Assembly: GCF_037078405.1 (NCBI RefSeq)
Contig: NZ_JAYMGZ010000002.1
Span: forward strand, 124,001-188,000
DNA: 64,000 nt
Direction of reading: 5' to 3'
Source of the DNA: Haloarcula sp. DT43
Lineage (GTDB): Archaea > Halobacteriota > Halobacteria > Halobacteriales > Haloarculaceae
Shown: positions 27,009 to 63,875 of the stretch, in pieces
Numbering within the stretch: the first letter of the stretch is position 1
Layout of the letters: the number at the start of each line of letters is the position of its first letter
Program-made: the position numbers and the translations under genes
The notes under the pieces: model-generated
What the model was told of the DNA's origin: nothing
The model's input: only the letters and a program-made list of their open reading frames with translations
The model's database searches: none

Positions 27009-27437
27009 TCAGTCGTCGTCCTCGGTGGTCGTCCGGTCGATGTCCTTCTCGCCGAAGTAAATCTCCGCCCCGTCCTGTGCCACCTTCTCGGCGAGGACGG
27101 CGCATTTCACCCGCATCGGTGAGATGTCGACGCCGAGCATCTCCGTGATGTCGTCGCGGTCCATCGCCTGCAGGTCCTCGATTGCCATCCCCGCAAGCTC
27201 CTGTGAGAGCATCGACGCGGAGGCCTGTGAGATGGCACAGCCGTCGCCCTGGAAGGCGACCCGCTCGATGGTCTCCTCGCTGTCGTCGAGGACGACGTCC
27301 ATTCGTATCTCGTCGCCGCACATCGGGTTCTCGCCGACGTGGGTGAACGTGGCGTCCTCGATTTCCCCGTAGTTCCGGGGGTTCTTGTAGTGGTCGAGGA
27401 TTTGCTGCCGGTACATGTCCGAGCCACCGATACCCAT
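27009..27437 (-). CDS. sufU: SUF-type iron-sulfur/sulfur-transfer protein SufU
   Basis: This 142-residue member of the IscU/SufU family has Cys40, Asp42, Cys67 and Cys112 (NPMCGDE, GDGCAIS, MRVKCAVL), the zinc- or cluster-binding set of SufU. SufU accepts persulfide sulfur from SufS. It lies downstream of sufS on the same strand, but 320 bases of repeats intervene, so it may need its own promoter. Confidence 0.9.
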   Translation of the reverse strand: MGIGGSDMYRQQILDHYKNPRNYGEIEDATFTHVGENPMCGDEIRMDVVLDDSEETIERVAFQGDGCAISQASASMLSQELAGMAIEDLQAMDRDDITEMLGVDISPMRVKCAVLAEKVAQDGAEIYFGEKDIDRTTTEDDD

Positions 27438-27480: not shown

Positions 27481-27559
27481 CCACCTTTTTCCACGGGGGC
27501 ATCGCGCTCGTCAGGGGCGAACGCTCAACCCCCGTAGAAAACGTGGGCGAAAAAGGTGG
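27481..27559 (-). repeat. Palindromic element E1 (79 bases), distal copy at the sufS locus
   Basis: Outer inverted repeats CCACCTTTTTC (27481-27491) and GAAAAAGGTGG (27549-27559) are a perfect 11-base pair. The core holds CGGGGG and CCCCCG arms and differs from the cores of E2 and E3. The host-side arm overlaps by two bases a 23-base hairpin at 27558-27580, which has one mismatched pair. Confidence 0.85.
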
Positions 27560-27580
27560 GATCTCACTCCGTTCGGTCCC

Positions 27581-27653
27581 AGAGAGACGATTACGCGAAC
27601 AGCTGCCGGGCGTCGTCGATGGCCGAAACGAGCTTGTCCACTTCCTCGCGCGT
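27581..27653 (-). repeat. Duplicated 3-prime end of sufS
   Basis: Bases 27591-27653 are identical at 63 of 63 positions to the sufS end at 27758-27820, including the TAA. The flanking 3-prime sequence TCGTCTCT is also copied, with a two-base insertion. Without a start codon or upstream frame, this is a gene fragment. It sits between elements E1 and E2. Confidence 0.95.
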
Positions 27654-27662
27654 ATCGCGAGA

Positions 27663-27749
27663 CCACCTTTTTCATCGTTGGGTCGCCTGTGGCGACCACG
27701 CCTCGAAAAACGTGGGCGAAAAAGGTGGGACCTCACTCCGTTCGGTCCC
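27663..27749 (-). repeat. Palindromic element E2 plus stop-proximal hairpin (87 bases) after sufS
   Basis: Outer arms are CCACCTTTTTC (27663-27673) and GAAAAAGGTGG (27718-27728). An inner perfect hairpin GGTCGCC-TGT-GGCGACC spans 27681-27697. The last two bases of the right arm start a hairpin with GGGACC and GGTCCC stems around an 11-base loop (27727-27749). On the host strand the order is sufS stop, hairpin, T-rich arm, core, A-rich arm, so it could also terminate sufS. Confidence 0.9.
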
Positions 27750-27757
27750 AGAGACGA

Positions 27758-29005
27758 TTACGCGAACAGCTGCCGGGCGTCGTCGATGGCCGAAACGAGC
27801 TTGTCCACTTCCTCGCGCGTGTTGTAGATATAGAAGGAGGCCCGCGCGGAGGCGGGGACGCCCATCTTGTCGTGCAGCGGCTGGGTGCAGTGGTCGCCGG
27901 CCCGGATGGCGACGGCGGAGTCGTTGAGAATCGAGGAGAGGTCGTGGGCGTGGACCGAATCGAGGTTGAACGCGACCAGGCCGCCCCGTGCCGTCCCCGC
28001 GGGCGGGCCGTAGGTCTCCACGTCGCCCTCGTCCTGGAGCCGTTCCAGTGCGTACTCGGCGAGCTGTTCCTCGTGGCGCTGAATCCGCTCCATCCCGATG
28101 TCGTCGAGGTAGTCACAGGCCTCCGCCAGCGCGATGCCCTGGCAAATGACCGGCGTGCCGGCTTCGAACTTCCACGGGAGGTCGTTCCAGGTGGCGTCCT
28201 CGAAGGTGACCTTCTGTATCATCTCGCCGCCGTAGAGGTACGGCTCCATCTCCTCTAAGAGGTGTTTCTTGCCGTAGAGGACGCCGATACCGGTCGGGCC
28301 GGCCATCTTGTGGCCGGAGAATGCCAGGAAGTCGGCGTCGATGGCCTCCACGTCGACCGGGCGGTTCGGGACCGACTGCGCGCCGTCGACGAAGATGTAG
28401 GCGTCGTGGTCGTGGGTGATGTCCGCAAGCTCCGAGACGGGGTTGACCGTCCCGAGCGTGTTCGAGACGTGGACGACGCTGACCATCGCGGTGTCGTCGG
28501 TGATGATTTCCCGCGCGTGGTCCATGTCGAGCGTGCCGTCCTCGTCGACGCTGATGTAGCGGCAGGTCGCACCGGTCTTCTTGGCGATTTGCTGCCAGGT
28601 CACCAGCGAGGCGTGGTGTTCCATCTCCGTGAGCACGACCTCGTCCTCGGGGCCGAGTTCGTTCAGGCCCCAGGCGTAGGCGACGAGATTCTCGCTCTCC
28701 GTGGTGTTCTTCGTGAAGATGATTTCCTCGCGTTCGCCCGACGCGCCGACGAACTCGGCGACGCGGTCGTGGGCGTCCTCGTAGGCGACGCTGGCCTCCT
28801 GGCTGAGCTGGTGAAGCCCGCGGTGGACGTTGGCGTTCGTCGTCCGGTAGTAGTCGGCGATGGTCTCGACGACCGGCTCGGGCGTCTGCGTGGTGGCCGC
28901 GTTGTCGAGGTACACCACCTGCTCGCCGTCGAACTCGCGTTGGAGGATGGGGAAGTCCTCGCGGATGCGTCCCACGTCCAGGAGTTCGGATTCAGAGTGT
29001 CCCAT
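27758..29005 (-). CDS. sufS: SufS-type cysteine desulfurase
   Basis: This PLP enzyme takes sulfur from cysteine for Fe-S and related sulfur-transfer pathways. It is 415 residues. PLP Lys233 is in FSGHKMAGPTGIG, the persulfide Cys373 is in IRAGDHCTQPLH, and there is an extended SufS-like lobe. Its natural partner sufU follows at 27437. Its last 63 bases are copied once downstream. It has no sufBCD neighbour in the window. Confidence 0.94.
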   Translation of the reverse strand: MGHSESELLDVGRIREDFPILQREFDGEQVVYLDNAATTQTPEPVVETIADYYRTTNANVHRGLHQLSQEASVAYEDAHDRVAEFVGASGEREEIIFTKNTTESENLVAYAWGLNELGPEDEVVLTEMEHHASLVTWQQIAKKTGATCRYISVDEDGTLDMDHAREIITDDTAMVSVVHVSNTLGTVNPVSELADITHDHDAYIFVDGAQSVPNRPVDVEAIDADFLAFSGHKMAGPTGIGVLYGKKHLLEEMEPYLYGGEMIQKVTFEDATWNDLPWKFEAGTPVICQGIALAEACDYLDDIGMERIQRHEEQLAEYALERLQDEGDVETYGPPAGTARGGLVAFNLDSVHAHDLSSILNDSAVAIRAGDHCTQPLHDKMGVPASARASFYIYNTREEVDKLVSAIDDARQLFA

Positions 29006-63100: not shown

Positions 63101-63158
63101 TCACTCGGGCACTTGCGCAATCGTCGTAATCGCACACGGACTACCGGGCCGGGACTGC
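63101..63158 (-). repeat. Duplicated 3-prime end of the UbiE-like gene
   Basis: The 58 bases match 63255-63312 at 55 of 58 positions, offset 154. In the host frame the three differences are Arg to Cys, a silent Glu change and TAA to TGA. The copy has no start codon. It lies distal to element E3 from the gene. Confidence 0.95.
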
Positions 63159-63162
63159 CGTA

Positions 63163-63249
63163 CCACCTTTTTCCGGTTCGGGTGACCGTCGGCCACCACT
63201 CACCGCAAAAACGTGGATGAAAAAGCGGCCACTCACTTCACTCGTGGCC
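63163..63249 (-). repeat. Palindromic element E3 plus hairpin (87 bases) after the UbiE-like gene
   Basis: Outer arms are CCACCTTTTTC (63163-63173) and GAAAAAGCGG (63219-63228). An inner hairpin GGTGACC-GTC-GGCCACC (63181-63197) has one mismatch. A host-proximal hairpin GGCCAC...GTGGCC with an 11-base loop spans 63227-63249. Total length and internal positions equal those of the 27663-27749 unit; the 66-base parts match at about 47 of 66 positions. Confidence 0.9.
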
Positions 63250-63254
63250 GAGGG

Positions 63255-63875
63255 TTATTCGGGCACTTGCGCAATCGTCGTAATCGCACGCGGACTACCG
63301 GGCCGGGACTGCTGGATGTGGTGTTCGAACTCCTCGAACCCGGCCTCGGTGAACATCCTATCGGCCTCTTCCTCGTCGTAAAACAGCATGATGGCGTCGG
63401 CCATCTTCTGGAAGACGGTCGAGTTGGGGTAGTCGGGGCCGACGATGAGGACCCGGCCGCCGGGCTTCGTCAGCCGCCGGCACTCGGCGAGGGCCTCGAC
63501 GGGGTTGGGCCAGTACTCGATTGAGCCCGAGGACCACACGACGTCGAAGCTATCGTCCTTGAACGGTAGCCGCTCGGCGTCGCCGAGGTGGTAGCGGACG
63601 TCGCCGAACTTGCCGAACTTCTCGTAGGCTTTGGAGAGCTGGTGGGGGCTCTGGTCGAGCCCGTACACCGTGTCGACGTGTTCGAGGAGCCCCTCGGTGG
63701 CGAAGCCGGTGCCACAGCCGACGTCGAGAACCCTGTCGTCGGGCGAGAGGTCGAGCATGTCGATTGCCTCGTCGCGCATCCGCTCGTCCCAGATGAAGGG
63801 GTTGATCTGGTCGTACACCTTCGAGAGGTACTTGTAGAACGTCCGCGCGCGGGCTTTGTTCTCGAGGACTCCCAT
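63255..63875 (-). CDS. UbiE/VTE3-like methyltransferase
   Basis: This 206-residue class I methyltransferase has motif [15 protein letters not shown] at 49-62, motif II YGLDQS and a motif IV-like DVVWSSGSIEYWP. The C-terminal ADRMFTEAGFEEFEHHIQQ resembles the plant tocopherol/plastoquinone methyltransferase type. A role in menaquinone methylation is plausible but inferred. The gene ends in a TAA, five bases before the hairpin of E3. Confidence 0.86.
   Translation of the reverse strand: MGVLENKARARTFYKYLSKVYDQINPFIWDERMRDEAIDMLDLSPDDRVLDVGCGTGFATEGLLEHVDTVYGLDQSPHQLSKAYEKFGKFGDVRYHLGDAERLPFKDDSFDVVWSSGSIEYWPNPVEALAECRRLTKPGGRVLIVGPDYPNSTVFQKMADAIMLFYDEEEADRMFTEAGFEEFEHHIQQSRPGSPRAITTIAQVPE

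Follow-up and report, generated by a model that had tools for sequence, protein, structure and literature searches.

Two neighbouring repeat elements, E1 and E2, lie between the sufS and sufU genes in a 64,000-nucleotide stretch of a Haloarcula genome (the whole of the DNA analysed, here called the window), and both belong to a dispersed family of hairpin-built elements found at gene ends in the Haloarculaceae. The account that we consider probable is that of a family of hairpin modules, putatively acting as two-way terminators, in which template switching at the linkers between hairpins gave rise to the E1/E2 doublet. The family is unnamed and extends across one archaeal genus and beyond. Two of its traits, namely the separate exchange of hairpins at conserved joints and, at one site in three, the copying of adjacent gene ends, are, like the family itself, undescribed in the open papers searched. 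Located beside many genes, the elements provide a natural record of the ways in which duplications in archaea may arise from hairpins and short repeats. They also carry a warning for annotation, in that the gene-end copies resemble pseudogene fragments and elements at the same site can seem unrelated despite their common position.

The elements of the window

E1 (27481-27559; 79 nt) consists of CCACCTTTTTC, a first hairpin of the CGGGGG...CTCAACCCCCG type and the conserved linker AAAACGTGGGCGAAAAAGG (27538-27556), at which the duplicated block begins; its hairpin 2, GGGATCTCACTCCGTTCGGTCCC, occupies 27558-27580. Next comes a non-coding copy of the sufS 3' end (27583-27653; 71 nt, 100% identical to 27750-27820) and then a 9-nt filler, ATCGCGAGA (27654-27662), which separates the gene-end copy from E2. 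At most such junctions in the family, the gap between copy and element is 0-10 nt. E2 (27663-27728; 66 nt) also starts with CCACCTTTTTC, carries a short first hairpin of the GGGTCGCC...GGCGACC type and contains the linker at 27707-27725, followed by its own hairpin 2, GGGACCTCACTCCGTTCGGTCCC, at 27727-27749. All of these features are given for the + strand, and the two flanking genes are on the - strand: a sufS-type cysteine desulfurase (Aminotran_5; 27758-29005), whose 3' end is the source of the copied stretch, and a sufU/iscU-type scaffold protein (NifU_N; 27009-27437), the next gene downstream in transcription.

A prior sequence-only reading of this locus had reported the two elements at these places and lengths, and its coordinates were reproduced. 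The common block and adjoining hairpin that it described in both elements are likewise real: a 48-nt block running from the linker into hairpin 2 (27538-27585 versus 27707-27754) is 98% identical, next to the perfectly matching gene-end copy. Moreover, the 20-mer AACGTGGGCGAAAAAGGTGG occurs twice in the window where shuffles predict 0.01 occurrences, and so it is not a chance repeat. The reading also described shared outer arms; one correction applies to the right arm, GGTGG, most of which belongs to the start of hairpin 2 (GGGAYC...GGTCCC). Its view of the two cores as unrelated holds as well, since they align with an identity of 0.57 against 0.49 in shuffles; the cores are alike in build and composition, with no convincing sequence homology.

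The same window contains a third family member, E3 (63163-63250, + strand), which the earlier reading had missed. E3 is made up of CCACCTTTTTC, a hairpin 1 of the form CCGGTTCGGGTGACC...GGCCACCACTCACCG, the linker AAAACGTGGATGAAAAAGC and hairpin 2. Beside it, at 63105-63158 on the + strand, is a 54-nt non-coding copy of the 3' end of the adjacent gene (63255-63875, - strand), with one mismatch to 63259-63312. We take this gene, by sight from its sequence, to encode a methyltransferase-like protein.

The sufS end has also been copied in other species, again downstream of sufS (L068, L071, L072, L074, L075, L077 and L064). A different hairpin pair, GTTCTG..CGAAC..GTGAG..CAGAGCCAGCGAGACGAG..CTCGCC, interrupts the copy in those loci, always at the same position, GACGAC / GC; L075 has the arrangement in tandem.

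Build and distribution of the family

The build CCACCTTTTTC - hairpin 1 - AAAACGTGGGCGAAAAAGG - hairpin 2 is common to the 152 parsed copies; hairpin 2 is often followed by GAAACC - hairpin 3 - GTATGC, and in larger copies, further conserved linkers connect additional hairpins. In the arms, CCAC-C-TTTTT pairs with AAAAA-CG-TGG, and AAAAAGG is usually followed by CC or CG. Copy counts rest on pattern searches. The 17-nt linker AACGTGGGCGAAAAAGG, with at most one mismatch allowed, was found in 31 of 32 Haloarcula genomes, at up to 17 copies each, versus none for the reversed control; the sole genome lacking the linker is 71% complete. More copies are present in Halorientalis, Halomicrobium, Salinibaculum, Halosimplex, Halovenus, Halorhabdus and one Halohasta. 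Viral contigs gave 17 pattern matches, and the plasmid collection searched gave no match. Bacterial matches to a 16-nt pattern lacked the family build and were taken as chance.

Two further arrangements were seen among the copies. In several loci (L036, L092, L096, L110, L116 and L133), modules of two or more hairpins are inserted in the linker at AACG/TGGG, with ACG on both sides; the two-hairpin module of L036 is absent from the matching site L126. In addition, the same tRNA-like gene end (CAAATCCCAGTCCTGGCG) lies directly before the elements of L027, L044, L097, L148 and L235, which represent five species and five different cores.

Exchange and stepwise change of hairpin cores

The sequence-only reading had proposed comparing core trees with flank trees, but the cores are as a rule just 19-56 nt long and thus too short for formal trees. 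The comparison was therefore run on distributions of identity. Two copies counted as a same-site pair when the alignment of their left flanks reached the element at a nearly equal offset (n = 116, with an offset of 0 in 87). The median identity of hairpin-1 cores was 0.63 in these pairs and 0.62 in unrelated pairs (n = 11,358), while an identity of at least 0.90 was reached by 18% of the same-site pairs versus 0.5% of the unrelated ones. Given a minority of same-site pairs that are highly alike and a median equal to that of unrelated pairs, a site keeps its core for a while and then loses it.

Core types also recur at unrelated sites, with identities of 0.90-0.96 for long cores. The recurrence of cores with different flanks, which had been suggested as a check, was thus found, together with different cores at one site. 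The E1 core type (CCACGGGGGCCTCGCGCTCGCC...GCGCTCAACCCCCGTACA) is present at several other sites in several species, including one on another contig of its own genome. The E1 site itself has three core types in three species (the genome of the window, G000, along with G023 and G027): the left boundary, on the sufU side, matches in all three, and G023 and G027, which also have a two-hairpin module and hairpin 2 on the right in common, carry cores of two other types. The G023 core at this site is identical at 50 of 51 positions to a core beside a different gene of G023. Furthermore, the replacement of hairpin 1 at a site is separate from that of hairpin 2. Among same-site pairs (related pairs are counted, and the events are not independent), hairpin 1 differed and hairpin 2 was the same in 11, the reverse was true in 8, both were the same in 7 and both differed in 41.

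Where might the incoming cores originate? No donor for the E2 core was found in its own genome, where the best matches are partial or below 80%. Across all genomes, high-identity core pairs within a genome number 8 against 4.8 expected, which is not significant (p 0.12), and exchange may therefore run between cells rather than within one.

Compensatory substitution alters the stems as well. In two ungapped core sets, 94.7-95.2% of stem cells are paired, and changes on both sides of the stem affect 28 cells in each alignment as compared to 6.6 in shuffles, with none of 500 shuffles reaching 28. Hardly any variation is seen in the internal loop (TCG opposite CTC) of either set. The sequence-only reading had set cassettes against hairpin-driven divergence; cassette-like exchange of cores is supported, but the two are not alternatives, since stepwise change occurs too. 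Stepwise divergence in relatives, which the reading had named as telling against its proposal, is indeed seen at some sites, and the recurrence of core types stands regardless.

Gene-end copies and doublets

A third of the family copies have the end of the adjacent gene, or rarely its start, duplicated at their left end. With a score of at least 60 as threshold, the stretch to the left of the element matches the stretch to the right in 48 of 148 copies, compared to 8 of 2,861 control pairs. The gene-end copies are 38-235 bp long (median 78) and end a median of 5 nt from the element. Many of them start at or near the stop codon, those of one gene group start at the start codon, and the copies of tandem units start in the linker or hairpin 2. 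At one gene, that of L085, the junction GTCGTCC-GAGT-CCACC is identical in 8 species, whose cores largely differ; the junction in G022 is another one, and both copy and element are absent from about 21 genomes. In each species, the copy resembles that species' own gene. Sequence exchange between the two would lead to this resemblance and would also permit clean loss.

The sequence-only reading had argued that a simple tandem duplication would have copied the core, and within its limits the argument is correct. This is what happened in most other doublets (L079, L081, L083, L085 and L201), in which the whole unit is repeated and the cores are equal. In E1/E2, L086 and L279, the cores differ; here the unit starts inside the element, at the linker. 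The arrangement of E1/E2 fits a repeated unit that runs from the E1 linker through hairpin 2 and into sufS, with the E2 core at the junction behind the 9-nt filler; with such a unit, the E1 core was never copied. The doublet belongs to the same type of event as L039, L241, L204 and L181, in which the left unit consists of linker-like sequence plus hairpin 2, or of hairpin 2 alone, and has no hairpin 1. Tandem repetition can go further: L079 (in G017) has three units of 186 bp, each an element with its gene-end copy.

Possible pathways of core exchange and gene-end copying

Template switching at the common linkers would explain both the core exchange and the gene-end copies. During replication or repair, a new strand would leave its local template at the linker common to all copies and proceed on another copy, thereby taking over the hairpin of that copy. 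If the strand then returned to the other arm, the core alone would be exchanged. If it returned further back, in the gene end, then the gene end, linker and hairpin 2 would be copied again and a foreign core would be left at the junction, and the E1/E2 doublet would be the outcome of such a return. A broader version, which we advance tentatively and at somewhat less than an even chance, is that hairpin modules are interchangeable genome-wide and that their joints are template-switch points, so that one process reshuffles terminator hairpins and copies host gene ends without any dedicated transposase. Several observations count against template switching. The E2 core has no donor in its own genome and within-genome core pairs are not significantly enriched, as described above; the common linker is only about 17 bp, which is short for ordinary homologous recombination; and the filler before E2 is not accounted for.

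Perhaps, instead, an ordinary tandem duplication copied the core, and gene conversion later replaced one core from another site. Same-core doublets are common, single elements exchange cores too, and haloarchaea are polyploid and carry out gene conversion. However, the left units without hairpin 1 (L039, L241, L204 and L181) imply that the duplication began inside the element and that no core needed replacing, and we give this sequence of events about one chance in four. Only slightly less likely is transposition, with hairpin 1 and its inverted ends (CCAC...GTGG) being a very short element that an unknown enzyme mobilises, the gene-end copies being very long and variable target duplications, and the unlike cores at one site reflecting repeated insertions. 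The left end is well defined (CCACC), copies adjoin unrelated genes, and a two-hairpin module occupies L036 but not the matching site L126. But we know of no transposase that makes target duplications of 38-235 bp, and a single base would have to have been hit repeatedly, with no target sequence in common, to give the different cores that occupy exactly one position in up to seven species. Moreover, one IS200-type transposase gene was found in the genome, and the arms do not flank it. Precedent for short mobile repeats in haloarchaea does exist, as Haloquadratum has such repeats without target duplication, as well as 'SwitchRepeats' (PMC3119063).

Rapid hairpin-driven divergence in place, in which E1 and E2 began with one core and were made unlike by palindrome correction and compensatory change, draws on the strong compensatory signal and on sites with stepwise variants. 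In G006, G031 and G012, the element at the gene end corresponding to that of E3 differs from E3 (G000) by few, partly paired changes, and the pairs G013/G017 and G019/G009 at the L085 gene end look stepwise in the same way. Drift in place cannot, however, produce the recurrence of complex cores with common unpaired features (such as CTCAACCCCC opposite GGGGGCCTCG), nearly unchanged, at many unrelated sites; in addition, doublets of clearly recent origin have equal cores. We consider this explanation improbable. Even less credit is due to a conserved structured regulatory RNA that is neither a mobile nor an exchangeable DNA element: the internal-loop sequence is conserved and the stems covary, but a search with 1.1 kb found no Rfam match up to E = 1, the sites adjoin unrelated genes on both strands, and there is much gain and loss between species.

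A putative role in termination

The likeliest role of the elements is that of a putative two-way terminator at gene ends, because T-runs (T5) on both strands adjoin GC-rich hairpins. A rough call of the flanking genes places 45 copies in convergent, 76 in co-directional and 13 in divergent gene intervals, the last of which count against the overall explanation. In Haloferax volcanii, T-stretches and one tested hairpin stop transcription (PMC7237163). The family resembles such archaeal terminators in its T5 runs directly after stop codons and its GC-rich hairpins; it differs in being a repeated sequence family with exchangeable parts, for which termination is putative.

Comparison with known repeats

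The family was compared with several known classes. MITEs have terminal inverted repeats in common with a full transposon and a target duplication of short, fixed length; the elements here have CCAC...GTGG ends and duplications that vary from 38 to 235 bp, and a parent transposon was sought via PF01797 only. Elements derived from IS605 (PATEs) have near-terminal palindromes, no inverted ends and no target duplication, whereas inverted ends and gene-end duplications are both present here. The absence of an Rfam match likewise sets the family apart from known structured RNAs.

REP elements (GTAG-/CGTC-tagged; PMC3733652) are also short intergenic palindromes, often downstream of genes, with possible terminator function and alternative complementary residues in their stems. 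The family, in contrast, is larger, with several hairpins and conserved joints, and does not flank the IS200-type transposase found. Instead of a GTAG tag, the 152 parsed copies have the ends CCACC and AAAAAGG, with CGTC only inside some cores, and the one PF01797 (Y1) gene in the genome has no arms in its 2.2-kb locus. A plain IS200/REP identity was dropped on these grounds. The repetitive hairpin-forming and double hairpin elements of mitochondria (PMC2800124) similarly have one or more hairpins, are dispersed between genes and show few complementary changes. These elements come from other organisms and have other sequences, and it is their stems that are conserved, whereas the joints and internal loops are conserved in the present family.

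The nearest known kind is the short mobile repeats of Haloquadratum walsbyi (SMR-A/SMR-B; PMC3119063), compared here by description. These too are haloarchaeal repeats of about 80-110 bp with inverted ends and no transposase, and they tend to nest in other palindromes. The 'SwitchRepeats' provide a further parallel, in that two strains have, at a given position, either two distinct repeats or a single repeat in opposite orientations (PMC3119063). We do not place the family among the SMRs, which it resembles only in size and nesting: an identity above 95% is common among SMR copies, which make no target duplication, while the family described here combines unlike cores with conserved joints and has duplicated gene ends in a third of its copies.
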